33,884 bases of DNA from Bacillota bacterium (lineage in GTDB: Bacteria; Bacillota; Limnochordia; Darwinibacteriales; DTU012). Below are positions 15,824 to 33,884 of the stretch, piece after piece. The notes beneath the pieces are model-generated. The model saw nothing but the letters and a program-made list of their open reading frames with translations, was not told where the DNA came from and made no database searches. The stretch's first letter is position 1; every line of letters starts with the position of its first letter. A program made the translations under genes and the position numbers. The stretch is taken from contig JAAZMN010000075.1 in assembly GCA_012798795.1 (NCBI GenBank), forward strand, positions 1 to 33,884, written 5' to 3'.

Positions 15824-17515
15824 ATGCAGGTTTATCTGGAAAGTGCTTTAATTATTACCTTAGTGATTTTATTGATGCTGCTGATATCAAATCTGGCTTT
15901 CGCTCTGGAAATTGGAGAAGAAAGAAAAGATATGCAGGCTTTCTATGAAACTTGGCACCCGGGCTGGAATTTAGGCAATACTTTTGATGCAACCGGCAGC
16001 GAGACTTCTTGGGGCAATCCTTTGACAACCAAAGAACTTATCGATTATATTGCCTCAGCCGATTTTCACAGTATTCGCATTCCAGTTACCTGGGGGCATC
16101 GCATGGGTCCAGCACCTGAATATACCATCCAGGAAAGTTTTCTTAATCGAATTGAACAGGTAGTTCAATGGTCGCTGGACGCAGGGTTATCAGTAATGCT
16201 CAATGTACACCATGATACTGGTGATACCGGCTGGATTAAAAATATGGCTGATGATCCAACAGTTTTACCGAAATTTAAGGCACTCTGGGAGCAAATTAGC
16301 GAGCATTTTAAAGATTATCCCCACAGCTTAATATTTGAAGGTTTAAATGAACCCCGCTTTTCCCAGGACTGGAATGAAGATAAACCCCAATATTTTGAAA
16401 TGCTTGAACAGCTGAATACCACTTTTTACCAAGTTGTACGCAGCTCCGGCGGGAATAATTCTACTCGTCCGCTGGTATTGTCGACTCTTACCGGTTCGTC
16501 TACCCAAGCACGCTTAAATAAACTGGCCGATACTATTGCGAAACTGAATGACCATAACATAATTGCCACGGTGCATTACTACGGTTATTGGCCCTTTAGT
16601 GTTAATATTGGCGGTGCCACTCGTTTCGATAATCAAAGTAAAAATGATATAACTGCCGCAGTTAACAGAATTTATAATACATTTGTTTCCAAAGGTATTC
16701 CAGTAATTATCGGCGAATACGGACTATTAGGGTTCGACAAATCTTACAACACAATTCAACGAGGAGAAGTCTTAAAGTACTTTGAATTTCTTTCATATTA
16801 TGCCAAAGAAAAGACCGTGCCTTTAATGCTTTGGGACAACGGACAGCATCTTAACCGCAGCAAATTAGAATGGCGCGATCCTGCTTTGTACAAAACAGCG
16901 ATATCCAGCCAACGCTCTGCAAATACCAATTCCGACACTGTTTATTTTAAAGCCGGAGCACCGATTAACGATGCGGCAATAAGAATCAATCTAAACAAAA
17001 ATACATTAACCGCAATTAGTTATAATAACAACCCACTGAAAGAACCCGAGGAATACCAGTTAAATGGCAGTATTCTTACACTTAAGCAAGAATTCTTAGA
17101 AAAAGTAATAACCAAAGAATATGGTGTAAACGCCATGTTAGAACTAGAATTTTCTGCAGGACCTAATTGGGAAATTAAAATTGTATACTATGATACACCG
17201 GTTCTGAAAGTAAAACAGGCAATGATGAACAACTACTATATTCCGATTAACTTTAATGGCGATAATTTAGCAACTATGGAAGCAATCTACATTAGCGGCG
17301 GTAATGCGGGACCGCAAAATTGGACATCATTTAAAGAATTTAATTTCTGCTTCCAGCCGCGTTACGATATGGGAATCATTCAATTAACTCCAGCATTTTT
17401 TAATGAAGTTAAAGACCAAGAAGTACTGCTGAGATTTCATTTTTGGAGTGGTGAAATTGTAGAATATATAATTTGTAAATCCGGTATGAACATTACAGGT
17501 TTGCCTAAAAAATAA
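15824..17515 (+). CDS. Secreted GH5 endoglucanase with CBM_X2-like and C-terminal carbohydrate-binding domain
   Basis: Signal peptide; GWNLGNTFDA, FHSIRIPVTWGHRMG, LNVHHD, IFEGLNEPRF (acid/base), TVHYYGYWPFS, VIIGEYG (nucleophile); downstream DAAIRINLNKNTLTAISYNNNPL... (X2-like) and a C-terminal beta domain. Confidence 0.92.
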   Translation: MQVYLESALIITLVILLMLLISNLAFALEIGEERKDMQAFYETWHPGWNLGNTFDATGSETSWGNPLTTKELIDYIASADFHSIRIPVTWGHRMGPAPEYTIQESFLNRIEQVVQWSLDAGLSVMLNVHHDTGDTGWIKNMADDPTVLPKFKALWEQISEHFKDYPHSLIFEGLNEPRFSQDWNEDKPQYFEMLEQLNTTFYQVVRSSGGNNSTRPLVLSTLTGSSTQARLNKLADTIAKLNDHNIIATVHYYGYWPFSVNIGGATRFDNQSKNDITAAVNRIYNTFVSKGIPVIIGEYGLLGFDKSYNTIQRGEVLKYFEFLSYYAKEKTVPLMLWDNGQHLNRSKLEWRDPALYKTAISSQRSANTNSDTVYFKAGAPINDAAIRINLNKNTLTAISYNNNPLKEPEEYQLNGSILTLKQEFLEKVITKEYGVNAMLELEFSAGPNWEIKIVYYDTPVLKVKQAMMNNYYIPINFNGDNLATMEAIYISGGNAGPQNWTSFKEFNFCFQPRYDMGIIQLTPAFFNEVKDQEVLLRFHFWSGEIVEYIICKSGMNITGLPKK

Positions 17516-18320: not shown

Positions 18321-19712
18321 CTAAAATTCAGCAGAACGGACAGTCCTTGGAAAGGATATTACATCGCGAATATTGGATAATCCAGTTATATACATTATGG
18401 CACGTTCAAAGCCTAATCCATAACCGGCATGTTTATTGGTACCATATTTTCTTGTCTCTAAATACCACCAATATTCTTCTTGATCAAGCCCAAGCTCTTC
18501 CATGCGTTTTACTAAATAATCATAACGCTCTTCCCTTTGGCTTCCTCCAATGATCTCGCCGACTCCCGGCACAAGTAAATCCATAGCTGCCACTGTCTTT
18601 TGATCATCATTCAATCTCATGTAAAATGCTTTAATTTCTTTAGGATAATTAATTACAAATACTGGTTGATGGAAAACTTTTTCGGAAATATAACGTTCAT
18701 GCTCTGTCTGCAGATCACAGCCCCATTCAACAGGATATTTGAAATCATGCTTGGATTTTTTCAAAATATCGATTGCTTCAGTATAAGTGATTCTTCTAAA
18801 ATCAGAATTAACCACATTATCCAGTCGGGCCATTAATTCCCGATCAATAAATTTATTGAAAAACTCCATTTCCTCTGGTGCATTCTCTATACAGTAATTA
18901 ATCAAATACTTAAGCATCGCTTCTGCTACATCCATATTATCATTGAGATCAGCAAAAGCCATTTCAGGCTCTAACATCCAAAATTCAGCTGCATGTCTTG
19001 GAGTGTTGGAATTTTCAGCACGAAATGTAGGCCCAAATGTATAAACATTGCGGAAAGCAAGAGCGTAGGTTTCAGCTGCCAGCTGACCACTTACTGTTAA
19101 TTTTGCGTCCTTCCCAAAAAAGTCTTCGGAAAAATCCACGCTGCCGTCAGGATTCCGTTTAAGGTTATCTAAATCCAAAGTTGAAACCCGAAACATCTCT
19201 CCCGCACCTTCACAATCGCTTGAGGTAATAATGGGAGTATGCACGTGAACAAACCCTCGTTCTTGAAAAAACTTATGAACAGCATAAGCAGCTAAAGAAC
19301 GAATGCGAAAAACAGCCGAAAAAGTATTAGTGCGCGGCCTGAGATGTGCAATTGTTCTCAGATATTCAAAGGTATGGCGTTTTTTCTGTAACGGATAGTC
19401 AGCAGCTGCTGGCCCTTCTATCACAATTTGTTTCGCCTTCAACTCAAATGGCTGCTTAGCACCGGGGCTTTCCACCAGCTCACCTTGGACTGTAATTGCC
19501 GAACTGATATTTAACTTAACTACCTCTGTAAAATTATCCAAAGAGTCATCAATAACAATCTGTAGATTTTTAAAAAATGTTCCGTCATTCAACTCAATAA
19601 AACCAAATTTTTTAGAATCTCTAATTGTTCTAATCCAACCTGATAGTTCAACTTCCTTATTCATGTATAAATCAGGATTACGAAATATTTGTTTAACAAA
19701 AACAGTTTCCAT
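18321..19712 (-). CDS. asnS: Asparaginyl-tRNA synthetase
   Basis: Class II aa[55 protein letters not shown]...[29 protein letters not shown]...[31 protein letters not shown] 19712 with RBS GGGAGGAA. Confidence 0.97.
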
Positions 19713-19732
19713 GTTTATTCCTCCCACTAAAT

Positions 19733-20734
19733 CTATAATAAAAAAATATTATGCTTGCTGCAGGCCTCTATAATTTGACGTGACCAAACCGAAGCTTGTA
19801 CCTCACCAATGTGTATTTTTTCTAAAAAGTACATACATAAACGGGACTGGCCGATTCCTCCTCCGATTGTTTGGGGTAAATTGCCTGCTAATAACTGCTT
19901 GTGAAAATCTTGCTCTGCTCTTTCTTCACATCCCGCCTTTTTAAGCTGTTCCATCAGCGTAGGCGGATCAACACGAATACCCATAGAAGAAAGCTCAAAT
20001 GCCATATTTAACAGCGGATGCCAAACAAGAATGTCTCCATTCAAACTCCAATCATCATAATCCGGTGCCCGTCCGTCATGTTTGATACCGGATTTTAGTT
20101 TCCCACCAATCTCCATTAAAAAAACTGCCCTTTTATCTTTAGTAATAGCATCTTCTCTAGCTTCGGGAGGAAGGTTCGGATATAAATCCTCAAGCTCCTG
20201 AGTAGTAATGACAAAAATCTCTTCAGGCAGCTGCCAAGTAAGACCCGGATAATCGCGATGAATTGTCTTTTCAGTGAGTTTTAAACAGCGGTAAATTTTA
20301 GCAACAATGGACAGCAGAAAATCAGAATTCCTTTCATCTGCCTGCATGATTATTTCCCAATCCCATTGGTCAACATATAAGGAATGAAGATTATCCAACT
20401 CTTCGTCACGCCGGATAGCATTCATATCTGTATAAAGCCCTTCGCCCGCGCAAAAGCAGTACTTTTTTAAAGCCATTCGCTTCCATTTAGCCAATGACTG
20501 TACAATTTCACAGCGGGAATTTCCCAATGCAGGGACATTAAAATCTATCGGCCGTTCCACACCGGTTAGATTATCATTTAAACCTGATTCCGGCTGCACA
20601 AACAGAGGAGCGGAGACTCTCAGTAAATTTAATTCTTGTGCCAAAGCTGATTCAAAAAAATCCTTTAGCTTCTTAATTGCAATTTGAGTTTCTCTTAAAG
20701 ATAGTTTGCTGGTATAATCTTGAGTTATTATCAA
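19733..20734 (-). CDS. asnA: Aspartate--ammonia ligase (AsnA)
   Basis: [63 protein letters not shown]...[13 protein letters not shown]...[27 protein letters not shown]...[29 protein letters not shown] start. Confidence 0.97.
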
Positions 20735-20849
20735 TAATAGTTCCTCCCATTAACTTTCCCTTGACTTTCAGCCATTAAACTCATTACATTCCACCTCTAT
20801 GCTGTAAAATCCTGCTATTAGTAATAAATCAGTAAAAAAAACTGTAAAT

Positions 20850-20875
20850 AAAGGATACCCTTAAGGATATCCTTT
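20850..20875 (-). terminator. Terminator downstream of the carbohydrate operon
   Basis: AAAGGATA (20850-20857)/TATCCTTT (20868-20875) stem; minus strand continues ATTTACAGTTTTTTTTAC. Confidence 0.6.
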
Positions 20876-20915
20876 TTAGACACTAATTATCTAACTATAT
20901 GGTCTCCAGCAGTAG

Positions 20916-21776
20916 TTATTTATCTATTCCGGCACTGCCCATAGTCTGTACAACTTTGCTTTGGTTAATTATAAATATTATAATCGGAATGAGCATCATC
21001 AATACTGTTACAGCTGCTCCTGTACCGGCTCTCGCTATTCCCCCGGAAACAATCTGATTAAGAGCATACGGTAGTGGTTTTAACTCCTCCGTATAGATAA
21101 ATCTAGCTCCAGTTTCTCCCCACATGCTTTGAAATGAGAGAATGATTAAGGTTAACCATGCCGGTTTAACGTTAGGCATTACAATACTCCAAAAAATTTT
21201 GAATTCACCGGCTCCGTCAATTCTAGCCGCTTCCAGCAGTGGATTAGGAATTTGTTCCATAAACTGTTTCATTAAATATAATCCTAACGGCATAGCCCAT
21301 GCAGGGGCAACAATTGCTAAGTAGGTGTCTACCCATCCGATATGTGACATTATTAAATAGTTAGGAATTGCTGTCACATGCCAAGCAAACATTAATGAAA
21401 AGACTATTATATTAAAGTACACACCCCGCCCGGGGAATTTATGCTTTGCCAAAGCATATGCTGCCAGAGAAGCCATTAAAACATGCCCGCAAGTTCCAAA
21501 AGCCGTAATAACTAATGTATTGAACAAATAACGGGTAATCGGCACCCACGAATCTTCCATCAAGAGAAACAGATCATAAAAGTTTGCCATAGTCGGATTG
21601 CGTACAAAGAACCGAGGAGGCCAAATAAATAATTCATTCATGGGTTTAAATGCCTGACTGATAGTATAGACCATAGGTAAAGCCATGAAGGTGCCGCCTA
21701 TAACCAGCAGAATAAATACAATTGTATCACCCCCGGCTGAACGAGTAACTTTCTTTTCGCGTATGCTTAATTTCAT
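20916..21776 (-). CDS. Carbohydrate ABC transporter permease, MalG-type
   Basis: Six-TM permease with EAA loop EAARIDGAGEFKIFWSIVMPNVKPAW. Confidence 0.92.
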   Translation of the reverse strand: MKLSIREKKVTRSAGGDTIVFILLVIGGTFMALPMVYTISQAFKPMNELFIWPPRFFVRNPTMANFYDLFLLMEDSWVPITRYLFNTLVITAFGTCGHVLMASLAAYALAKHKFPGRGVYFNIIVFSLMFAWHVTAIPNYLIMSHIGWVDTYLAIVAPAWAMPLGLYLMKQFMEQIPNPLLEAARIDGAGEFKIFWSIVMPNVKPAWLTLIILSFQSMWGETGARFIYTEELKPLPYALNQIVSGGIARAGTGAAVTVLMMLIPIIIFIINQSKVVQTMGSAGIDK

Positions 21777-21794
21777 CCGGCGTCCTCCTTTTTG

Positions 21795-22748
21795 TTAACT
21801 ATCCAAATTTCTCAATAAACCCTGTACTATCTGCTGAGTTATAACCATTGCAAGAAACAAAATTACAGCAATAGCTGATGCATATCCCATTTCAAACCTG
21901 ATATTTCCATAATCCAATAAATGAGCAACAACTGTATGAGCAGCATAGTCTGTGCTGGGAAATCCAACCAGCGGAATAATCTGACTGGCTGCTGCAAAAG
22001 AGCCGGTGATGGACATAATTGCACCAAACATCAACTGCGGCTTTAAAGCTGGTAGTGTTAAATACATAAACTCTTGAAATCGATTTCTTACACCATCAAC
22101 TGCACCAGCTTCATATAAAGTAGGGTCAATCCCCTGCAGTCCAGCAATAAATACTAAAAAGCTGGTTCCTAAACTCATCCATAAAGTAACTAAAATCGCA
22201 ATCGGCATCATCCAGTCCGGATCCGTTAGAAACTGGATCGGTTTATCAATTAAACCCCAGTAACTAAGAAACCCATTGATAACACCGTATGAATCGCCGC
22301 TGAACAAATAGGTCCAAATCATATATACATTTCCAGAAATACTTGGTGCATAAAATAAGAGCGTAAGAAAAGCTCTTAATCGCGGCTGCAAATCATTAAT
22401 CATCCAAGCAAACACCAGGCAGAGAAAATAACTTACCGGGCCGGTAATTACAGCAAACACAAAAGTATTCTTAATGGCAATTAAAAATACATCGTCGGCG
22501 AAAAACAGACGCAGATAATTCTGCAATCCAATCCACTGGGGAGCTTCTAACATATTATAATGGGTAAAACTTAAACCCATCGCCAACAATACCGGCAGCA
22601 ACGTAAACCCAAAAAAGAAAATTCCAAAAGGAGCAATAAACAAATATGAAATCTTATTGGACTTGACATCATGTACAATACTGCTCAATCGTCTTTTTAT
22701 CCATCTTGTCAGCCTCGGCGCCTTAGTAGGAGCTGTAACTGCACTCAT
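21795..22748 (-). CDS. Sugar ABC transporter permease, MalF-type
   Basis: EAA loop YEAGAVDGVRNRFQEFMYLTLPALKP; ATG overlaps the upstream stop (ATGA). Confidence 0.92.
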   Translation of the reverse strand: MSAVTAPTKAPRLTRWIKRRLSSIVHDVKSNKISYLFIAPFGIFFFGFTLLPVLLAMGLSFTHYNMLEAPQWIGLQNYLRLFFADDVFLIAIKNTFVFAVITGPVSYFLCLVFAWMINDLQPRLRAFLTLLFYAPSISGNVYMIWTYLFSGDSYGVINGFLSYWGLIDKPIQFLTDPDWMMPIAILVTLWMSLGTSFLVFIAGLQGIDPTLYEAGAVDGVRNRFQEFMYLTLPALKPQLMFGAIMSITGSFAAASQIIPLVGFPSTDYAAHTVVAHLLDYGNIRFEMGYASAIAVILFLAMVITQQIVQGLLRNLDS

Positions 22749-25702
22749 CTTTCTCCCCCTTCCATATCAGGAAACTCCAGATAATAACGGCGGTTTTCCG
22801 GTAATTGTTCAATTTCCGTTTCTAAATCAAATTCCGTGCGCTTAATGGCAATTTCCTCATTAATCAAGCGATTATAATCAAGCAGCACCTCACGTGCGGA
22901 TTCATGGTCATAGACAACCTTACGAAATGCATTGTCAATATGTCTGCCAACCATATAGGCACCAGGTACATTCGGCACCCCAACAGCCCAGATTCTTTGC
23001 TGATCCAATAGCTTATACTCATCCACAGTCCAAGGTAGACCCCGAGAAGCTTCGACATTAGCAGTAGGATAGCGGGCAGCCCTTCCCATAACACTTTCCA
23101 ATTCTTGACCAAAACGCATTTGAATCTCACTGCTCGACCACCATTTGATAAACTCCCAAGCTGCCTCATAATCTTTTGCTGTTTTCATAATCATGGTGCC
23201 AGAACCCTGAGACGGAACATGATGATTAATGGTACCGTCATCACAAACTGTCCCGGGAACCAAAGTAAAATCCCATTCTCCTCTCAATTCTGGAGCAAAT
23301 ACCGTGAGAGTATTATAAAGCTGATAATCTGCAATAACAATAGGCATTTCCCCCATTCTAAACCGATTAGCCGGATCATACCACATGGGAACATCATATA
23401 ATTCATACAGTTCTGTCCAGGTAATAAAAGATCTGACTGCTGATTTTACATCGAGATTCGTCGCAATTCCATCCCATTTATAAAGAGGTACTCCCTGCTG
23501 ATACAAAAACATTAAATACGTCTGCACGCCACCATGATTTACCAGTGAAACTGCAGATGCTGATTCACCTAGTGCACCGCTGGCAGCTTGGGCAACACCT
23601 GAATAAGGTAGCCCCACATCCATATGCTCTCGTTTTAATTCAGGGATAATCCGAATTAAATCTTCCCAAGTACGCGGCACTTCCAATCCCAGTTCTTCTA
23701 AAATATCCTTGCGGTAAAACATCATGGGAAACGACTGAACTTCCGGGATAGCATAGACTGAATCCCGAAAAGTAAAAGGAACAACTGCACTGGGCATAAA
23801 GCGGTCTGCCACCATGGGATAATCTGGAAAGTCAGTCAAATCAACAACTGCACTACGAATAGCAAATTCCACAGGCTGTGCAGCAGGAACTCCCATTGCT
23901 ATATCCGGCCCCCGCCCTGCTAAAGTAGCTGGAAGCAATATCCCCATATTGATCAATTCTAAGTTTACTTTAATGCCAGTTGTAGAAGTAAAACTATCCT
24001 CAATCATTTCTTTTAAAATGTAAGCCTGATCTCGCCCAAGGCCAATCCAGACTTTTAACGCTGTTTTTTCGTCTTCATAGACATCTCCCACCAAAGAGTA
24101 ATCATGACTGAAAGATGCAGCAAAAGACCTTAGTTCATGCACAAGTCTCTGGTAAAACCGGGGTTTGGCTGGCGGCAGTTGCTGATCCGGGCTGGAAACA
24201 ATTAAATAATCAATCTGCAGAGGTTGTTCTTTTGTATTTAAGATCCATTCTCCTAAAGCTCCTGAATTATCCCGAAATTCATCTAAACTTCTGGGGATAA
24301 CATCTGGATCATCCGCCATTTTTGCCAAACTAAATGCTAATTCATTCAGCAGGGCAACATGTGTGCCCTGCTCTCCTGCTATCTCAGCAATTTTTTTAGA
24401 TAAATCGGCAAACACCTGACTTTGAACACGTAAACTTTCAATTACGTCAGGAATGCGTTCGCCCAATTGATAGTCGCGGATTACATCAGGATTGGTAGAA
24501 GTAATCATGACAATTCTGCGAAATATGGTGTTTAATTCATAAAGGCATTCCTCGGTTATCCGCAGAATTTCAGCTAAATCCCCCATAACTATCTCTAACT
24601 GAATAATGTTTTTACCCTCATTAAGATAGAATAAATATGGCTCGCCGCATTCTTCCATTCCTAATGTAACCATCTGATAACTGCTGGAAAAAGGAAATTT
24701 AACTGCTTCTACTTCTGCAAATGGAAGCTCATCATTGATCTTTAGACGGCGGTTAACAAAAGTGCCGCGGCTGAATTTCTGTTTTGCTTTAAATGATATA
24801 CTGTACAAACCGGATTCAGGCACAGTAACCTCCCAAGCAATCCAATCTCCTGGTTGGCTCCACCGCTGTCCCCCAATGGCATTTAGTCTAATCAGTGCCG
24901 GATCATATTCCTCTAATGTGGGATCACTGCGATCATGAATGGCAAACAATGATGGACTGGAACGATAAATACTGTCCTCAGCTTGTACTTTTTCAAAAAC
25001 ACCTGATGTTATTTTGTACCCAAGCTCCTGATAAGACTTTAAAACCTGCTGGTAAGTAGAATTTTCAGCAGCAGGCCTTAAAGTTAAGCTGTGAATTACC
25101 ATTGGTTCCCGCCGTGATACTAATGTAATGGTATTTAAACCCTGCTCAAAATAGAAGCTTAACGGAATCCGGTAATTCCCATTAGAATCTTCCAACAACA
25201 CCGTACGCCACATAGGTTTTTCCACTTGGCGCGGACGAATCTGATTCCCCCTGTTATCCATGTGCGGTTCATCTTCGTCACCCCAAACACGATGGAAATT
25301 CAAATAGCCGGCTTCGATATACGGCCGTTTACCATTGATCAATAAATCACGCTGAATATTACCGCGTCTGCCTGCTACTGGATAATAAACAACGGCAATA
25401 TTATATAAACCGGCTTTTTCTACATTTACTTCCCATGCAATTAGGCCTTCTTCATCTGTTTTTACGGATAAACCTTTCATACCGGCAAAATTTTCCAAGT
25501 GCTGTATATTTCCGGAACTTTTAGTATAGGCTTCCGCAGGTATTACAATACAGCTATCAGGAGCAGGCGTGCCTTGATAGATTTTAAGATAATCATGAAA
25601 AGTTACTCTATTATTATTGAAATCTGCTTGAGCTTGCACGACAAAATTAATTAATAAGAGCATGGTAACAGCCAATACTGCTGTAAAATATTTCCTTCTC
25701 AT
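22745..25702 (-). CDS. Giant extracellular solute-binding protein: signal peptide, two CBM35/CBM6-like domains, helical linker, C-terminal sugar SBP
   Basis: About 985 aa; N-terminal repeats WEVNVEKAGLYNIAVVYYP...LNTITLV and WEVTVPESGLYSISFKAKQ...KNIIQLEIV; C-terminal family-1-like SBP (GIKVNLELINMGILLPATLAGRGPDIAMG...YAIPEVQSFPMMFYRKDILEELGLEVPRTWEDL...AWEFIKWWSSSEIQMRFGQELE). Confidence 0.88.
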   Translation of the reverse strand: MRRKYFTAVLAVTMLLLINFVVQAQADFNNNRVTFHDYLKIYQGTPAPDSCIVIPAEAYTKSSGNIQHLENFAGMKGLSVKTDEEGLIAWEVNVEKAGLYNIAVVYYPVAGRRGNIQRDLLINGKRPYIEAGYLNFHRVWGDEDEPHMDNRGNQIRPRQVEKPMWRTVLLEDSNGNYRIPLSFYFEQGLNTITLVSRREPMVIHSLTLRPAAENSTYQQVLKSYQELGYKITSGVFEKVQAEDSIYRSSPSLFAIHDRSDPTLEEYDPALIRLNAIGGQRWSQPGDWIAWEVTVPESGLYSISFKAKQKFSRGTFVNRRLKINDELPFAEVEAVKFPFSSSYQMVTLGMEECGEPYLFYLNEGKNIIQLEIVMGDLAEILRITEECLYELNTIFRRIVMITSTNPDVIRDYQLGERIPDVIESLRVQSQVFADLSKKIAEIAGEQGTHVALLNELAFSLAKMADDPDVIPRSLDEFRDNSGALGEWILNTKEQPLQIDYLIVSSPDQQLPPAKPRFYQRLVHELRSFAASFSHDYSLVGDVYEDEKTALKVWIGLGRDQAYILKEMIEDSFTSTTGIKVNLELINMGILLPATLAGRGPDIAMGVPAAQPVEFAIRSAVVDLTDFPDYPMVADRFMPSAVVPFTFRDSVYAIPEVQSFPMMFYRKDILEELGLEVPRTWEDLIRIIPELKREHMDVGLPYSGVAQAASGALGESASAVSLVNHGGVQTYLMFLYQQGVPLYKWDGIATNLDVKSAVRSFITWTELYELYDVPMWYDPANRFRMGEMPIVIADYQLYNTLTVFAPELRGEWDFTLVPGTVCDDGTINHHVPSQGSGTMIMKTAKDYEAAWEFIKWWSSSEIQMRFGQELESVMGRAARYPTANVEASRGLPWTVDEYKLLDQQRIWAVGVPNVPGAYMVGRHIDNAFRKVVYDHESAREVLLDYNRLINEEIAIKRTEFDLETEIEQLPENRRYYLEFPDMEGGER

Positions 25703-25727
25703 CAAGGGCCCTCCTTTAGCCTATAAT

Positions 25728-26630
25728 TTAACCAATAATACCTGTGCGTTCAATACTCTCAATAAAATAACGCTGCATTAAGGCAAACAGAATTAATAAA
25801 GGCAGTATAAATAAAATCATGCCTGTATTACTAATCAGCGAGCTGTAGTGGGTCCGCAAAAGATCTGTACGGCCTTCCACTGCCTTCACAGCAATATTAT
25901 CCAATGCATGAGTTAAAAATTTACCCTGTCCACCCATAAACAATGTCGTATAAAAATAATCATTCCACTGCCAGACGAAAGCAAATAAAAACACAATAAC
26001 TAAACCGGGAACTGCACTGGGAAGCATAATAGTTAAAAAAGTACGCAAAAGCCCAGCACCGTCCACATACGCCGCATCCTCCAAATCTTTAGGCATACCC
26101 CTAAAAAACTGGCGCATTATGTAGATAAACAACCCGTTGCGCAGTCCCACACCGGTTATTGAAATTAAAATAAAAGGCCAAACGCTGTTTAACAAATTCA
26201 ACCCAGGTGGAGGCAGCAATCCGTAAATATCAAAATATCTAAAATTGAGATACATAGGAACCATCAACATCTGCGGAGGTACAATTAGAGTAAAAATCAC
26301 CATTGCAAAAATAATTTTTCCGCCCTTAAACTTAAATCTTCCTAAGCCGTACCCTACCAAAGTACAGGAAGCGAGCTGCAGAATACTTACAGCTAAAGTT
26401 AGGGAAAATGTATTGCGAAAAGCGATAGGATAATTCATAAAACCCCAAGCATCTTTATAATGCTGCAGTGTAAAAGTGCGTGGGAGCCACTTGACAGTCT
26501 GATCAAACATATCCGATATAGTCATAAATGAAGAGGAAAGCTTAGTAAGTAACGGCTGTAAAATAATATAAGCTACTCCAATAATAAAGACAGCCCTTAA
26601 AACTCCAATAACAAACGATTTTCCTTTCAT
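25728..26630 (-). CDS. Carbohydrate ABC transporter permease, MalG-type (second pair)
   Basis: EAA loop EDAAYVDGAGLLRTFLTIMLPSAVPGL; MalG-like topology. Confidence 0.92.
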   Translation of the reverse strand: MKGKSFVIGVLRAVFIIGVAYIILQPLLTKLSSSFMTISDMFDQTVKWLPRTFTLQHYKDAWGFMNYPIAFRNTFSLTLAVSILQLASCTLVGYGLGRFKFKGGKIIFAMVIFTLIVPPQMLMVPMYLNFRYFDIYGLLPPPGLNLLNSVWPFILISITGVGLRNGLFIYIMRQFFRGMPKDLEDAAYVDGAGLLRTFLTIMLPSAVPGLVIVFLFAFVWQWNDYFYTTLFMGGQGKFLTHALDNIAVKAVEGRTDLLRTHYSSLISNTGMILFILPLLILFALMQRYFIESIERTGIIG

Positions 26631-26650
26631 GTTCCCAACCCTCCTTTAAC

Positions 26651-27550
26651 TTATTCCTGGTAATATACCCATTTGGAGACTACCTGCAGTACTAATCCTA
26701 ATACAGCAGCAATTACAATGAAATACAATACTGCCATGGCCGTACTGACTCCAAACCCTTGAGAAGTAAAAGCTGTCGAGCGAATCATTGATACTAACTC
26801 GTTATCTGCAGAAGTAAATGAATCAATAATTGTATAAACCACAGCAGTTAAAATCAGTGGGCTGAGCATAGGAAAAGTTATTAACCAAAAACTTTCCCAT
26901 GCTGTTGCTCCTTCAACATCTGCTGCTTCATAAACACTGCTGGGTATGGACTGCAAACCAGCTAAAAAAATGAGAATTTGTATGCCAGAAGCACGCACAA
27001 TAAGAGGAATCCTTTCCACAGCATCGATAATAAACTGGAGAAACTGCTCCGGTAATCTGGTGGACAATAACAGATTCTGCAGTGCAGTACCGCTGAAGAC
27101 AAGCCCAGGTTTAGCTGCCCCCAAAGAAAGCTGAGTAATCATATCAGTTTGTTCTAATCGAAAGATAATCCCGGCACCTAAGATAACCGGTAAGAAAAAT
27201 ATTACCCTGGCCAGCAAACGGCCGAAAAACTTTTGATTAAGTATTATTGCTGTAAAAAAGCTGAAAGCCAGGATTAAGGGTACATTAACCGCCAAATTAC
27301 CGATTTCTGCCGCTAAGTCCATGGGGAAACTAGGATGAACATTAAGAGCATAGCTGTAATTGGACCACCCTACAAAAGTGAGTTCATATCCGATAGGGGT
27401 CAGCTGTAACTCATTAAAACTAAAAATTAAAGTCTGCATAAATGAATAAAAGAAAAATAACGCGAATCCGATTAAAAATGGCAGGCAGAATAAATATCCT
27501 GCAATAATCTTTCTGCGCTGGAAAGATATTCTAAATAACTTATTTTTCAT
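26651..27550 (-). CDS. Sugar ABC transporter permease, MalF-type (second pair)
   Basis: EAA loop YEAADVEGATAWESFWLITFPMLSPLI; ATG 27550 overlaps the upstream CDS stop by 11 nt. Confidence 0.9.
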   Translation of the reverse strand: MKNKLFRISFQRRKIIAGYLFCLPFLIGFALFFFYSFMQTLIFSFNELQLTPIGYELTFVGWSNYSYALNVHPSFPMDLAAEIGNLAVNVPLILAFSFFTAIILNQKFFGRLLARVIFFLPVILGAGIIFRLEQTDMITQLSLGAAKPGLVFSGTALQNLLLSTRLPEQFLQFIIDAVERIPLIVRASGIQILIFLAGLQSIPSSVYEAADVEGATAWESFWLITFPMLSPLILTAVVYTIIDSFTSADNELVSMIRSTAFTSQGFGVSTAMAVLYFIVIAAVLGLVLQVVSKWVYYQE

Positions 27551-30281
27551 CCGGATCACCCTCTACCTTGATAAAACTCTCACCCTCAATAATACAGCTG
27601 TCTAATATGACTCGATGCTGATTGTAATTTACAATAACTGTAACTCCGCTTTCATATGTAGTTGAAAACACTTCGGGTGCTAAGCGTCGATGATCAACAA
27701 TTCGCTGACCTTTGATTTTTTCAAGCAGTTCTTCCGTTTCTAAATAGAAATCTACTGCATCATCCAGCCAATCTCCATAATGAACTGCATATAAATAATC
27801 AAAATCCGTACGTTTTAGCAAAGAAGACGGAGTGAAAGTGCCGATATAATACTGCCCAGCTCCTGTTTCCAAAGTTTTTAATAATGCTTGGCGCATATTT
27901 TCCGCTAAATTAATTGCCTCACCGGTATAATGCCAATAGCCGCTTAAAACAATGGGCAAAAAAGGAATACCCTGATCAATGATATGCAGTGAACTAGCAG
28001 TTAACGGCACATTTACTGCTGTACTTACATAAGGCAGAACGTAACTGTTGGCACCGTCTGTCATCAGTTTAAGTTCATACTCTTCGGCAAGGGTCTTTAC
28101 TCCATTTTCAAGCAGATAACGTGCCTGCTGCCGATTTATTAAGTCGTGTTCACTAAGTCGGTAATCTGAATTAAGCAGCACTCCAAAATCCCGTAGGCAG
28201 ATATTGTTAACCTGATATTTTAAATAGTCCTGAGCAAATTTGTCTATTAAATCCGAAAGCTTGCGTGGAGAAAGAATATACGGGCTTCTGCCCTGCTGCC
28301 TTTGAGAAGTAGCAATACTATAAGGATAAATTTGGGCAGCTTGGCGAGAAATAAATCGAGATGCATCAGTACGAATGATAAAACTGTCAAACAGTCTATT
28401 TTTGTATACTAAGAGCAAACTAACATCAGGGTAAAATGCTGCATTATTAGCTTCTAAATGCCGCATCAACTGCTTCCAATCGTGATTAGTACCTAGTATA
28501 GGCTCTAAACTAACTTTATCCGGATAGAAATGCTCAATTCCACCTTTAAGCCAGCCAGAATATCTAATCTGTAACCCTGATATTTCTTTTGCCATTAATT
28601 GATGGACAACAGCTGCCGCCTGTTCAAAAGTGGTTAATGGATAGATTACTTGTCGGGGCACTCCTAAAATCGGTTCTGAATGGTCAATGGCTGCCGCTAG
28701 TTCCACAATAAAGGGCTGCTTGGAATCAAGTGGAGTTAATCCGTAATTGTTTACTAAGTATTCTTGGTAACGATGTGCCATACCCACGTAATCAGCTTCA
28801 CCACCTATTAAAAATTTATAGCGAATCCGAAGATTACCCTGATAAATCTGATGCTGATATACGTTAAGATAAGTCGTAGTTGCATCATAATACATCTGTA
28901 GCTGGGAAAAAGGCCTTAGGTTAAAATTTGTGTAGACCTTATTATATCCGTCAGTTCTGCCAGCGGTATCTGCCCGGATTCTACCAATGGCATCTCCTTC
29001 CTCGATAATGGCCAAAAAAGCTAGTTCATCTTGTTTCAGACCAAATATAGGAAGATGAATCTGCTGTCCTGGATAAGGCATGCTGGCAATAGGCGTTACG
29101 GAAAAATCTCTACCATATATTATTTTTTCATAAGATGAAGTAAAGCGTTTATCTGTATTAAGATAGATAAGTGCACCTGAGCCATCCGGTATCACAATAT
29201 AACCTTCAGCTTGATCATGGGCAGCCCCAAAATATGGTAAAACGCTGAGAGTAGTCAATGGAAACGAAACCTGCCGTTTATCTCGAGAACGATCTTCCAC
29301 ATCCTGCGGAAATCTCAATTCGTTTACAGGCACATTAACAACTAAATCCCTGCCATCGAGCCGATATTCAATTACAATTTTGAAAACACGAATGTTTTCA
29401 AGCGGAGGATCAATCCTATTAGCTTCATGATCAAATTGTGTATCATAAGGAGTGTACCCGGAAGCTGTAATTGTCTCCACCAATCTAGTCCAATCCCAAG
29501 CACGAATCCGATCCTTCAAAATATAAGTAGGGTTGTCTTTTAACTGCACAAAGTTTTCTGGCTTTAGCTCTTGACGAGCCGAATAGTCCTCCCGATTATT
29601 AACAATATGAGTTGCTGCCCCTTGAATTAAATTACGCCTAGCAGATCCCTCCAGCACTTCACCAACTAAAGTCAGCATATAATCCGCACCAAAGAGATAA
29701 TCCTTATCCATGTTTAAAACTGAAACTCGTTCATAACCTTCGGGGATTTGTGTAATCTGAATTAATTGATACTGTTTTAAAATAAACTCCTGATCTTCAG
29801 AGGCAAGATGCTGTAAAATCTTAGACTCCATACGCTCTCTGCTGATGATTACCGGGACAATATCATCTGAAGCCCACCGCTGCCCAAACAAGTACTTAAC
29901 CCGAAATCCATCTGTTATTTTCTCGATTTCAGCCTGATCTAAAAGATTGCTGTTTCGGTAATTATTCATTGTTTGTCTAACATCTTCAGGAGTGTAGTAA
30001 TCAAACAGTAATTGCGAACTTAACTCATCAATTACACTGCCCCGAGCAATGCTGTCTTTTTCACGATTTTGGGGATTTGAAAACCATACCGCATCAAAGT
30101 CTTTAAGTTTAACCGCTATTTCTGTGGTTTGGGAATTAAGATAGAGAATGGCTTGTTCATTTTCTACCTGCAGGTCAAATTCTGCTAGATCAATGGCAGA
30201 AACCTGATTAGAAACTGCTGGAATTATTATAGCCATAATCAAAGCGATAATCTTAAATTTATAATTAAAGCAGATACGCAT
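27540..30281 (-). CDS. Secreted DUF5696-like protein, possible glycoside-hydrolase-type fold
   Basis: 913 aa, signal peptide; C-terminal LRDFGVLLNSDY...LMTDGANSYVLPYVSTAVNVPLTASSLHIIDQGIPFLPIVLSGYWHYTGEAINL resembles the DUF5696 family seen in Paenibacillus-type carbohydrate operons (recall, not searched). Confidence 0.65.
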   Translation of the reverse strand: MRICFNYKFKIIALIMAIIIPAVSNQVSAIDLAEFDLQVENEQAILYLNSQTTEIAVKLKDFDAVWFSNPQNREKDSIARGSVIDELSSQLLFDYYTPEDVRQTMNNYRNSNLLDQAEIEKITDGFRVKYLFGQRWASDDIVPVIISRERMESKILQHLASEDQEFILKQYQLIQITQIPEGYERVSVLNMDKDYLFGADYMLTLVGEVLEGSARRNLIQGAATHIVNNREDYSARQELKPENFVQLKDNPTYILKDRIRAWDWTRLVETITASGYTPYDTQFDHEANRIDPPLENIRVFKIVIEYRLDGRDLVVNVPVNELRFPQDVEDRSRDKRQVSFPLTTLSVLPYFGAAHDQAEGYIVIPDGSGALIYLNTDKRFTSSYEKIIYGRDFSVTPIASMPYPGQQIHLPIFGLKQDELAFLAIIEEGDAIGRIRADTAGRTDGYNKVYTNFNLRPFSQLQMYYDATTTYLNVYQHQIYQGNLRIRYKFLIGGEADYVGMAHRYQEYLVNNYGLTPLDSKQPFIVELAAAIDHSEPILGVPRQVIYPLTTFEQAAAVVHQLMAKEISGLQIRYSGWLKGGIEHFYPDKVSLEPILGTNHDWKQLMRHLEANNAAFYPDVSLLLVYKNRLFDSFIIRTDASRFISRQAAQIYPYSIATSQRQQGRSPYILSPRKLSDLIDKFAQDYLKYQVNNICLRDFGVLLNSDYRLSEHDLINRQQARYLLENGVKTLAEEYELKLMTDGANSYVLPYVSTAVNVPLTASSLHIIDQGIPFLPIVLSGYWHYTGEAINLAENMRQALLKTLETGAGQYYIGTFTPSSLLKRTDFDYLYAVHYGDWLDDAVDFYLETEELLEKIKGQRIVDHRRLAPEVFSTTYESGVTVIVNYNQHRVILDSCIIEGESFIKVEGDPDEK

Positions 30282-30299
30282 AGATACCCCCCTTTATTC

Positions 30300-32435
30300 C
30301 TAATTTCTAAAGACAAGTTCAATGTATATTTCCGAGAAAAACTGATAAACTTGTTCAGCAAGATTAAAATACAATAATCCGATAAATAGTGTTAAGCCCA
30401 TGCCAGCAATAGTTAAACCGGTAAATAATGCTGTCTTTCCAAAATCATATTGATGAACCACCATTGTACCGATGAAAATCAAAATCACGGTCCACACTAC
30501 TCCCAATGAAGTAAGGGTATAATAGAAAGATCCTTCTTCAACTATAATATAATTGCTGATAAAGGTTAAAGGAATATTCATGATTATTAAGGGAGTACAT
30601 GCATAAGCAACCGTAATAAAAATATCTTTGAAACTTCCCTTCCCATCTGATACGGTTGTCAGCGACCAGTTAACAATACACCACAGAAAAAACGGTATTA
30701 AAATACTGGCAAATTCCACATATATATTTAGTTTATTTAGATCACGTCGATTGAAAATAAAACCTGTGTATTGACGAGCATAAACATAACTTAGGGTCAG
30801 CAGCCCTAGAATGATTCCGGCAGATACTGCATTACCCCGTTTTTCATGTTTTAAATCCCAGAAACCTTCTAGAGGATGAATAATTAAATATAGTGCATAA
30901 GCCAAGCTTTTGGCAATAGTATACGATTTCAACCGGCCTCCCCATTTTTCCAGCGTATATCTTAATTTTTGGATCAACCTAAATTTAGATATTACAAAAA
31001 TTGCTGCAGCCATAACTACTATTAAAATAACAACCATAGTAAAGTTTTTATAAATAACTTCGCGCCGATAAAGTGCAAATGCTTTAGAATAATTAATCCG
31101 ATCCTCACCTAAACGAAAACTATACATAGCTTCAGCAAAACTGTCTTCTCGCATTTGAGCCCGGCCTATTCCCGTATGAGCTACATCTAAATTAACATTC
31201 ATCTGCTTTACTTTCTGCCACTCTAAAACCGAGTTATCCCAGTCATCATCATGGTAATAGGCAATAGCTGCATGAATAGATTGGGCATAATCAGTAGAAT
31301 TAAAAACTGTAATCATATTTGTTCCCCTGTCAAGCACCAAAATGCTCTCATCCAGTTCGGCTATGGCTTCTGGAATTTGAAAAGTTCCCCGGCTTTGGCC
31401 TAAACCTCCGAAAACATAAAGTAAATTCCCGTTTTCATCATAAGTAAAAACACGGCCCCGCCTCTGATCAAGGGCAGAGTACATCCCATTTTTTCTGGCA
31501 ATCACATCGACTAGCAATGATGACGCCAGTGTTGCCTCGCCGTATTGATCTAATAATGCAGAACCATAATCACCTATGGGTGGATTAAAGCCTGCCCTGC
31601 GCATTACATCAGTTCCGGCAGGATTGAGGCGTCTAATAGCTTCTGTATAGCGGATTTCTCCATCTGTAACCGTCGCAAAAATAAAGCCTCGTTCATCAAT
31701 ATCAATACTGCTGTGTTCTGTAGGTAAAAACAAAGTCAGCAGCTTTTTTCTCTCAGCTGATGAAAATCGCCGCCATAAATAATCAATTAAACTTGGGGTA
31801 ACGCGGGGAGCACCAATAAAGCCGCAGAAATCACCTTGAGGATCAAACTCCAAAATACCGTCATAAACCTCATCGGACACCACAAAAATACGGCCAACAT
31901 TATCCACACCGATCCGATTAGGATTATAACGGAAATCTGCTCGTATTACTCCGGAGAATTCAGGCTGAGGAGGACCTACCATCTGCACTAACTGACCCTT
32001 TTGATCAAGCACGACAATGCGTGAATTATTCCGATCAGCAATATAAATATGGCCATTGTCGGTAACATAAATTCCGCGAGGAGTATTAAAACAATCAATT
32101 ACACCATTATTGACAAACTCACTAAAAATCCGGATAACTTCATAGTCGCTATTAAGCTGAATGATTCTGTTATTGCCGGTATCAGATATATAAATACTCT
32201 TTTCAGCATCGACAAATATATCTCGCGGTGATGAAAACGCACCGACACCTAAATCCATACCGCGAATAGTTTTCACAGGAACATAAGCTTGAGGAGCATA
32301 GACAGGTTCCTGCCAAAAATCATAGGTATAACTGGAATAGGGAACTGCCAGAGTAGAAGAATCCCCCAAACCTTTAGCTGCTGTACTCGTTAAAAGTAAA
32401 ATCATGCATAAAGTTAGCAACAATGCCCTACGCAT
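30300..32435 (-). CDS. NHL-repeat beta-propeller + TPR-like + Yip1-family integral membrane protein
   Basis: Signal peptide; repeated NHL motifs (FSSPRDIFVDAEKSIYISDTGNNRIIQLN; FNTPRGIYVTDNGHIYIADRNNSRIVVLD); TPR-like stretch; multi-TM Yip1-like C-terminus. ATG 32435 with RBS GGGGGGAGGG preferred over the 32477 start, which overlaps lacI. Confidence 0.82.
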   Translation of the reverse strand: MRRALLLTLCMILLLTSTAAKGLGDSSTLAVPYSSYTYDFWQEPVYAPQAYVPVKTIRGMDLGVGAFSSPRDIFVDAEKSIYISDTGNNRIIQLNSDYEVIRIFSEFVNNGVIDCFNTPRGIYVTDNGHIYIADRNNSRIVVLDQKGQLVQMVGPPQPEFSGVIRADFRYNPNRIGVDNVGRIFVVSDEVYDGILEFDPQGDFCGFIGAPRVTPSLIDYLWRRFSSAERKKLLTLFLPTEHSSIDIDERGFIFATVTDGEIRYTEAIRRLNPAGTDVMRRAGFNPPIGDYGSALLDQYGEATLASSLLVDVIARKNGMYSALDQRRGRVFTYDENGNLLYVFGGLGQSRGTFQIPEAIAELDESILVLDRGTNMITVFNSTDYAQSIHAAIAYYHDDDWDNSVLEWQKVKQMNVNLDVAHTGIGRAQMREDSFAEAMYSFRLGEDRINYSKAFALYRREVIYKNFTMVVILIVVMAAAIFVISKFRLIQKLRYTLEKWGGRLKSYTIAKSLAYALYLIIHPLEGFWDLKHEKRGNAVSAGIILGLLTLSYVYARQYTGFIFNRRDLNKLNIYVEFASILIPFFLWCIVNWSLTTVSDGKGSFKDIFITVAYACTPLIIMNIPLTFISNYIIVEEGSFYYTLTSLGVVWTVILIFIGTMVVHQYDFGKTALFTGLTIAGMGLTLFIGLLYFNLAEQVYQFFSEIYIELVFRN

Positions 32436-32461
32436 ATACAAAAGACCCTCCCCCCGTCTTA

Positions 32462-33478
32462 TTAAATACGGCAGCATGAATCGCGCTCAATTAATTTTAC
32501 AGATAACACAACCGGGCTAAGAGCAGTTTCTGTTTGACGAATTAAACCCAATAAAACCTTGGCTGCAGTTCTACCCATTAAATCCGTATCCTGCCTAATT
32601 GTTGTTAATCTCGGTTTAATATATTTACATAAATCAATGTCGTCATAGCCAATTATGGAAATATCATCTGGGCATTTCAACCCTGATTCTTCTATTGCCA
32701 TTAAAGCCCCTACCGCAATAGAATCGCTTTGGCAGAACACTGCCGTCGGCCTATCGGATTGTTTAATTAACTTCTTCATGCCTTCATAGCCACAAACCTC
32801 AAGATAATCATTACCCACAATCCACTGAGTAGGACAAGTAAGATTATATTTTCTTAAAGCTTCCAAAAAGCCTTCTGTCCGCTCTTCTGTTGGCTTTACA
32901 CCAGGTAAACCTTGAATTAGTGCAATTTTTCGATGTCCTAAATTATAAAAATACTCCACAGCCTGCCTAGCCCCGCTGTAGTTATCCCATACAACGCACC
33001 TTGAATTCCTGCCACAGTGATCTCCGTCAATAAATACACTAGGTAGTTTAGAATTAAGCAAGGAAGCTAAACTGGGTTCATTTTTATCAATACCCATAAA
33101 AACCGCCCCATCAACTTGACGCGTACGGCATTTTTGCAGAAAATCTTTGCTACCTTTTAACGTAGAATCCGATAACAGCACAAAATCGTACCCGTGTTTG
33201 CCCAATGTTCTTTGTAATCCAAATACTACACCCTGGAAAAATGCATGATGCAGCCCGGGAGTGGGATTATGAGCCACAAATAAACCTATAGAATAAGACT
33301 GCTTTCCTGATAAGCTTTTTGCTATTACATTAGGTTCAAATGACTCTTCCTCTAAAATCTTTAGAACTCTCTGCCGTGTTTCAGCTCCTATATCTGAATA
33401 ATTATTAATTACTTTAGATACAGTAGCTACAGAAACTCCTGCCTTTTTTGCTATGTCTTTAATAGTTTTTACAGTCAT
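32462..33478 (-). CDS. LacI family transcriptional regulator
   Basis: MTVKTIKDIAKKAGVSVATVSKVINNYSDIGAETRQRVLKILEEESFEPNVIAKSLSGKQSYSIGLFV; LacI HTH + periplasmic-binding-like domain; RBS GGGGGAGGA before ATG 33478. Confidence 0.95.
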   Translation of the reverse strand: MTVKTIKDIAKKAGVSVATVSKVINNYSDIGAETRQRVLKILEEESFEPNVIAKSLSGKQSYSIGLFVAHNPTPGLHHAFFQGVVFGLQRTLGKHGYDFVLLSDSTLKGSKDFLQKCRTRQVDGAVFMGIDKNEPSLASLLNSKLPSVFIDGDHCGRNSRCVVWDNYSGARQAVEYFYNLGHRKIALIQGLPGVKPTEERTEGFLEALRKYNLTCPTQWIVGNDYLEVCGYEGMKKLIKQSDRPTAVFCQSDSIAVGALMAIEESGLKCPDDISIIGYDDIDLCKYIKPRLTTIRQDTDLMGRTAAKVLLGLIRQTETALSPVVLSVKLIERDSCCRI

Positions 33479-33558
33479 TTTATCCTCCCCCAACGTACTA
33501 TTACCAAACTTATATCCAGCAGGAAGGAAGTCCAAGGACTCCCTCCCCATTTTCTATA

Positions 33559-33884
33559 CTATTGATTTAAAAACTCATCTATCACCGCTTGAATCTGTGG
33601 TGCTGCAGCAGCCCAAGCAGCTGCAGGACTCTGCTCTCCATTTTGAATAGCTTGTAGAGGAGCGTGCAGCGGCCTGCGGTCATCCCAATCTGGACCTAGC
33701 ATTCCATCTAAATGAAAACCGGATCCATCCCATTCTTCTTCAGCCATAAGCAGAAGTTCATAATCAAATTCATTTAAAACATAATCGTAGCGCAGCTCTT
33801 CTCTTTCCATTAACTCTTCTTCAATCTGGAACAAGAAGTTATGCAGAGCAACCAATCCTTCAGGAAATTCAGCCGAAGCCGGAA
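33559..33884 (-). CDS. C-terminus of a possible second extracellular solute-binding protein, 5' end beyond right window edge
   Basis: Frame open to the edge: PASAEFPEGLVALHNFLFQIEEEL...PLHAPLQAIQNGEQSPAAAWAAAAPQIQAVIDEFLNQ*; the ending resembles sugar SBP C-termini (NG..SP.EA...A..I..ll). Confidence 0.45.
   Translation of the reverse strand, partial: PASAEFPEGLVALHNFLFQIEEELMEREELRYDYVLNEFDYELLLMAEEEWDGSGFHLDGMLGPDWDDRRPLHAPLQAIQNGEQSPAAAWAAAAPQIQAVIDEFLNQ

Follow-up and report, generated by a model that had tools for sequence, protein, structure and literature searches.

Known CUT1 sugar importers need a substrate-binding protein (SBP), two permeases and an ATPase. In the Mycobacterium kinase PknD, an NHL propeller serves as the extracytoplasmic sensor domain. 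Among the enzymes of glycoside hydrolase (GH) family 129, ZgGH129 requires D486, E517, E531 and D202 (PMC5698469), and in Ruminiclostridium cellulolyticum two SBPs, CuaA and CuaD, belong to one uptake system, with CuaD signaling cellobiose through the two-component system CuaSR (PMC10384115). Here we describe a gene set in a 33,884-nucleotide stretch of DNA from a Bacillota bacterium (the window, which is the whole of contig G000:C190 in a 1.77-Mb genome of 242 contigs). It combines CUT1-type transport genes with genes for an NHL-TPR-Yip1 membrane protein and a DUF5696 protein. The set is a real unit, conserved across many Bacillota and linked to glycans, and it probably imports plant-glycan oligosaccharides. 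We put the probability that it represents one conserved CUT1-type uptake machine for glycan oligosaccharides, used as a reusable chassis, at about 0.6.

Gene content and conservation of the set

The first-pass annotation had described a tightly spaced run of minus-strand genes at 20916-33884, and all the genes it named were recovered through Pfam and NCBIfam matches and the gene junctions. They form one compact operon, given here in gene order with lengths in amino acids (aa).

33559..33882, minus strand: plain SBP, C-terminal 107 aa, 72% identical over 106 aa to the 447-aa SBP of the related locus L112; the start lies past the contig end
32462..33550, minus strand: LacI-family regulator, 362 aa (Pfam LacI 2.3e-17, Peripla_BP_3 8.7e-41)
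30300..32477, minus strand: NHL propeller-TPR-transmembrane-Yip1 membrane protein (NHL-Yip1), 725 aa (Pfam NHL 1.3e-14 and Yip1 6.9e-14, both over cut-off)
27540..30281, minus strand: DUF5696 protein, 913 aa, with a signal-like N-terminus and a predicted GH129/GH101-like fold (Pfam DUF5696 2.6e-183)
26651..27559, minus strand: MalF-like permease F1, 302 aa (NCBIfam UgpA-like 9e-7; EAA motif; kept beside DUF5696)
25728..26630, minus strand: MalG-like permease G1, 300 aa (BPD_transp_1 9.9e-15; EDAAYVDG loop)
22745..25705, minus strand: large SBP, 986 aa, with two predicted beta-sandwich modules, a helical linker and an SBP domain at 546-960 (SBP_bac_1 5.6e-21)
21795..22748, minus strand: MalF-like permease F2, 317 aa (BPD_transp_1 1.5e-9; EAG motif)
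20916..21776, minus strand: MalG-like permease G2, 286 aa (BPD_transp_1 8.5e-17; EAA motif)
~20832..20877, minus strand: likely transcription terminator, a hairpin plus T-run in the G2-asnA interval (from the sequence; -14.1 kcal/mol; unflagged by a consensus terminator scan)

At the junctions, neighboring genes overlap by up to 20 nt or are separated by up to 22 nt. Gaps of 8, 18, 20, 22 and 18 nt separate SBP from LacI, NHL-Yip1 from DUF5696, F1 from G1, G1 from the large SBP and F2 from G2, respectively, while LacI and NHL-Yip1 overlap by 16 nt, DUF5696 and F1 by 20 nt, and the large SBP and F2 by 4 nt. The operon is truncated at the right end of the contig, and the 5' part of the system lies outside it. 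The fragment at this edge had been called a possible SBP; its likeness to the L112 protein confirmed the assignment. In L112, where the gene order equals that of the window throughout, the SBP gene lies 5' of LacI and its product matches SBP_bac_8. LacI genes also adjoin many related cassettes.

To survey conservation, DUF5696 neighborhoods were collected from relatives and from named genomes, and their genes were labeled using profiles for which the window's proteins served as seeds. This gave 159 DUF5696 loci from two partly overlapping genome collections, not all of which are independent. The order NHL-Yip1, DUF5696, F1, G1 was near-invariant, with NHL-Yip1 upstream of DUF5696 in 150 of the 159 loci and F1/G1 downstream in 149. 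The exceptions were mostly contig ends or gene calls displaced by a long antisense open reading frame; one locus (L058:5467-14715) is a rearranged cassette with NHL-Yip1 placed after G1 rather than before DUF5696. Because the arrangement recurs in well over 100 loci, it is far beyond chance.

The marker proteins also travel together. In 60 relatives, DUF5696, NHL-Yip1 and the large SBP were all present in the same 42 genomes and all missing from the same 18, with weak matches in G009, G036, G041 and G045 scored as absent. Weak, low-score PF18952 matches in Thermotoga and Lactococcus were taken as distant barrel matches. In a sample of 199 genomes spread evenly across the phylum (162 genera), DUF5696 and NHL-Yip1 occurred together in 16 genomes and both were lacking in 183. 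The large SBP was found in the same 16 genomes and additionally in G160 and G209, where it sits on contigs of 3.8-4.3 kb cut inside or beside F2. A gene set not conserved together had been named in advance as the outcome that would speak against a unit, and the 159 loci and the 60 and 199 genomes gave the opposite picture. Similar sets had been guessed for Paenibacillus-type genomes. They were found there, and the conservation was wider than guessed, the named hosts being Paenibacillus, Cohnella, Lederbergia, Caldicoprobacter, Mahella and a Butyrivibrio plasmid annotated with SBP, permeases, NHL protein, YIP1 protein, DUF5696 protein, permeases and SBPs. The searchable literature, queried for DUF5696 and for NHL/Yip1 with transporter or Paenibacillus, held no description of the gene set; most subscription papers and preprints were outside its scope.

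The components differ in their degree of conservation. The plain SBP was the most variable, with a mean pairwise identity of 0.28, followed by DUF5696 (0.35), NHL-Yip1 (0.41), the large SBP (0.44), F1 (0.45) and G1 (0.46), and F2 and G2 were the best conserved (both 0.56). The large SBP-F2-G2 block is variably placed, before or after the core, and absent beside many cassettes. This variable placement would suit two independent CUT1 importers that merely happen to be neighbors, NHL-Yip1 and DUF5696 being hitch-hikers of unrelated function. Against such an arrangement stand the identical presence and absence of the markers in the 60 genomes, the joint occurrence of DUF5696 and NHL-Yip1 in the 199, and the near-invariant gene order. 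The co-occurrence data largely refute it, and we consider it very improbable.

Several side observations concern copy number and flanking genes. Genome G004 and other genomes of genus g5 show a strong expansion of the core, a 2.4-Mb genome carrying as many as 11 NHL-Yip1/DUF5696 cassettes and only 4 large-SBP blocks. The window's own genome carries further cassette copies or fragments at G000:C152, G000:C193, G000:C57 and G000:C94 (loci L032, L033, L199 and L198), which adjoin beta-helix/esterase genes and GH30-like/GH115/GDSL genes. Directly downstream of the window operon lie asnA and asnS (18321-20734), and the L112 operon is likewise followed by a class II D/K/N-type tRNA synthetase, so the synteny extends past the operon. 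PADLOC defence models gave no match.

The DUF5696 and NHL-TPR-Yip1 proteins

The DUF5696 protein had been labeled "DUF5696-like" and proved to be a true member of the family, given its Pfam E-value. Its AlphaFold2 model (predicted local distance difference test, pLDDT, 91.9; predicted template modeling score, pTM, 0.88) comprised a beta-sandwich, a TIM barrel and a C-terminal beta domain, the arrangement expected of GH129 (PF11308). Compared with solved structures (VIA), the model gave Z 31.3 with NagBb (5wzp) and Z 30.7 with ZgGH129 (5opq). These two enzymes were the top fold matches, at Z 29-31 with 558-579 residues aligned at 3.9-4.3 Å, and the next-best match had a Z of ~20. HMMER matched DUF5696 to 5opq at 7e-8, and hhalign aligned the DUF5696 and ZgGH129 profiles over their full length with a probability of 96-98%. 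The agreement of the two methods points to homology between DUF5696 and the GH129 enzymes. In Pfam, the window protein matched DUF5696 only and not the GH129 profile. That profile also found no match among the 60 relatives, and the controls likewise gave none, which makes this result uninformative.

The acids essential in ZgGH129 were not conserved. Position 742 on strand beta-5, the equivalent of E517, was acidic in just 55 of 142 DUF5696 sequences, and V756, the equivalent of E531, was V, I or L in most of them. Even the three paralogs of the window's genome carried different pairs at 698/742, namely D/D, Q/E and V/G. The register of the D486 equivalent was uncertain between D698 and D706: a gapless hand alignment paired D486 with D698, at the end of predicted strand 4, and the profile alignment, of low confidence near this strand, gave a different register. 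Other residues in the beta-to-alpha loops of the barrel were well conserved, including D706 (133/142), N745 (133/142), D769 (120/142) and N791 (141/142). An acidic residue occupied position 706 in 133 of the 142 sequences and position 769 in 121, with both acidic in 112. As placed by sequence position and predicted secondary structure, the site seems to be retained with its chemistry altered.

These residues leave room for an active enzyme. DUF5696 could represent a new family of the GH101/GH129 superfamily that clips a terminal residue at the membrane with non-classical acids such as D706 and D769; the clear GH129-like fold, the full-length profile alignment with ZgGH129 and the mostly acidic character of both loop positions are in its favor. 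The losses at the E517 and E531 equivalents and the divergence among paralogs of one genome argue otherwise. The same family moreover occurs alongside glycosidase sets for many different polysaccharides, which would be odd for one specific hydrolase. We therefore consider an active glycosidase unlikely. Because the acids essential in ZgGH129 are not conserved, glycan binding is favored over classical hydrolysis. Of the glycan capture, processing and import initially proposed, capture and import by a dedicated set, kept as a unit, are supported, and processing by DUF5696 is doubtful.

In the NHL-Yip1 protein, the NHL and Yip1 domains suggested at first were both found over their profile cut-offs, and the propeller also matched solved NHL structures (including 1rwi). 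The description needed one correction, as matches to solved structures revealed TPRs between the propeller and the membrane segment. Hydrophobic segments lie at 11-29 and 472-490, with five more from 549 on, which fits a predicted topology of a signal anchor, a single linker helix and a Yip1 domain of five helices. Some genomes, those of Paenibacillus among them, encode NHL-TPR and Yip1 separately, in adjacent genes at the same place. The natural reading of this sequence is an outward-facing membrane platform, which may act as a scaffold or as a sensor. The idea of a membrane-tethered extracytoplasmic NHL propeller is thus supported, with the propeller joined to an integral Yip1 domain.

Receptors, permeases and substrate

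In the AlphaFold2 model of the large SBP (pLDDT 86.5), two beta-sandwiches and a helical region accompany a periplasmic-binding fold. Conservation within the protein is highest in the SBP domain (identity 0.55). The top structural match of this domain was the beta-1,2-glucooligosaccharide binding protein Lin1841 (5ysb), with Z 35.5 and a sequence match of 1e-24. Reading the substrate from this domain was rejected, since the scores of many other sugar SBPs come close. The protein had been described as fused to a carbohydrate-binding module (CBM). Although the model shows the two beta-sandwiches, the CBM label is weakly supported: the CBM35 match of the N-terminus was below cut-off (19.7 bits versus 28) and appeared, weakly, in 9 of 41 members, and a golvesin match was also sub-threshold. 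The N-terminus further gave a weak match to a CITase domain, and the structure search results were filled by the SBP domain. In two genomes (L066:12945-17573 and L072:11085-15659), a single chain of ~1,530 aa carries a GH10 xylanase, an F5/8C domain, the tandem beta-sandwich region and the SBP, joining hydrolysis and capture within one protein.

The transport genes have the features of CUT1 systems. The receptors belong to SBP_bac_1/8, the large SBP by profile and the plain SBP by homology to that of L112, and the permeases form MalF/MalG-type pairs with EAA-type loops in all four proteins. Three of the four exceeded the Pfam BPD_transp_1 cut-off; F1 fell below it (21 bits versus 26.4), and its identity is backed by NCBIfam matches and the EAA motif. 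The operon contains no ATPase gene for either permease pair. A MalK-type ATPase is available in trans, as the genome encodes one OB_MalK-type protein on a different contig (G000:C116), and in Paenibacillus cellulosilyticus ugpC lies immediately upstream of the cassette. With no ATPase gene in the operon, a single OB_MalK in the genome, an adjacent ugpC and EAA-type loops throughout, the simplest reading is that both pairs use one shared MsmX/UgpC-type ATPase.

Instead of a second importer, the large SBP, F2/G2 and NHL-Yip1 might constitute a glycan sensor, comparable to CuaD with CuaSR. The large SBP varies far less than the plain SBPs do, as a constant signal would lead one to expect, and the NHL propeller acts as a sensor domain in PknD (solved relative 1rwi). 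A second SBP with a sensing role is documented (PMC10384115). However, F2 and G2 retain EAA-type ATPase-docking loops and are the best-conserved members of the set, the GH10-SBP fusion better fits capture for uptake, and the operon encodes neither a kinase nor any other output domain. We regard the sensor as quite unlikely.

The genes downstream of the cassettes include those for GH26, 31, 29, 2, 5, 36, 10, 3, 28, 43, 115, 38 and 8 enzymes and esterases. As these neighbors span many families, the set has the look of an uptake chassis that can be reused. In the window, a plus-strand gene at 15824-17515 encodes a secreted GH5 endoglucanase with CBM_X2 and CBM46 modules; enzymes of this tri-modular architecture also occur in the cassette neighborhoods L191 and L123, and a close homologue in L187. 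Going by the GH5-CBM_X2-CBM46 architecture, the window's substrate might, tentatively, be a plant cell-wall beta-glucan such as xyloglucan.

A proposed uptake chassis and its relation to known systems

The genes present, their layout in an operon, their conservation as a unit, the folds, the operon without an ATPase gene and the glycosidase linkage were computed directly; from them we infer complex formation, a division of labor between the importers and the roles of DUF5696 and NHL-Yip1. The variable plain SBP with F1/G1 would be the substrate-specific importer, and the large SBP with F2/G2 an accompanying, near-constant second one, both borrowing a common MsmX/UgpC-type ATPase. NHL-TPR-Yip1 would anchor a platform of propeller and TPRs at the external side of the membrane. 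The secreted DUF5696 protein, with its GH129-like barrel, would most likely bind and present glycans at this platform, perhaps also trimming them. Secreted glycosidases, either products of nearby genes or part of a fusion with the large SBP, would supply the oligosaccharides, and LacI would regulate the set.

Three observations weigh against this proposal. The copy numbers are unequal, as in G004 with 11 NHL-Yip1/DUF5696 cassettes and 4 large SBPs, so the second importer is not required beside every cassette. The window's nearest glycosidase, the GH5 enzyme at 15824-17515, lies on the opposite strand, past asnA/asnS. Finally, the P. cellulosilyticus cassette adjoins flavin oxidoreductases and has no glycosidase neighbors. 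That locus (L204, on plasmid NZ_CP054609.1) holds the cassette, its own ugpC, three LLM-class flavin oxidoreductases and extra SBPs, and its neighbors suggest that some copies serve a non-standard substrate.

A bolder version would place all parts in a single membrane complex, a functional Gram-positive counterpart of the Bacteroides SusCD system. Both permease pairs, one constant and one variable receptor, a non-hydrolytic GH129-like glycan binder and the membrane-anchored NHL-TPR-Yip1 platform would jointly capture, hold and import polysaccharide fragments. The whole would be duplicated, and an exchange of the plain SBP and the glycosidases would direct each copy to a new target. We offer this version as speculative and rather doubtful. 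The reusable chassis, if true, would itself be an overlooked standard uptake system of plant-polysaccharide degraders. DUF5696 and the bacterial NHL-Yip1 proteins would gain a function, and there would be a marker predicting the glycan served by each copy. In addition to the parts that a known CUT1 importer needs, two protein families, one of them with no function described, accompany the permeases in many bacterial families, as many as 11 times within one 2.4-Mb genome.

The set is best described as an import system of the CUT1 type that has two additional obligate components and is paired with a constant importer. It resembles CUT1 importers with a shared MsmX/UgpC/MalK-type ATPase (the MalFGK2 class) in its SBP_bac_1/8 receptors, MalF/MalG-type EAA permeases, operon without an ATPase gene, glycosidase neighbors and LacI. 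Unlike them, it brings two permease pairs and SBPs of two kinds together in a single conserved unit, includes NHL-TPR-Yip1 and DUF5696 as obligate members, and has a large SBP with a 500-aa N-terminal extension, fused to GH10 in two genomes. Lin1841 (5ysb), the best match of the SBP domain, shares only 23% identity and lacks the N-terminal modules. DUF5696 shares with the GH129 enzymes (NagBb, 5wzn; ZgGH129, 5opq and 8rzk) detectable homology and, over nearly its whole length, the N-terminal beta-sandwich, TIM barrel and C-terminal beta domain. It differs in the unconserved E517/E531 equivalents, an identity of 12-16%, an extra N-terminal region and its constant place in a transporter operon with NHL-Yip1. 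As in PknD, the NHL propeller is linked to the membrane, but TPRs and a Yip1 membrane domain take the place of the kinase, and the protein is encoded with ATP-binding cassette (ABC) permeases. The CuaA/CuaD pair is alike in that two SBPs serve one uptake system, whereas here the second SBP has its own permease pair and no kinase.

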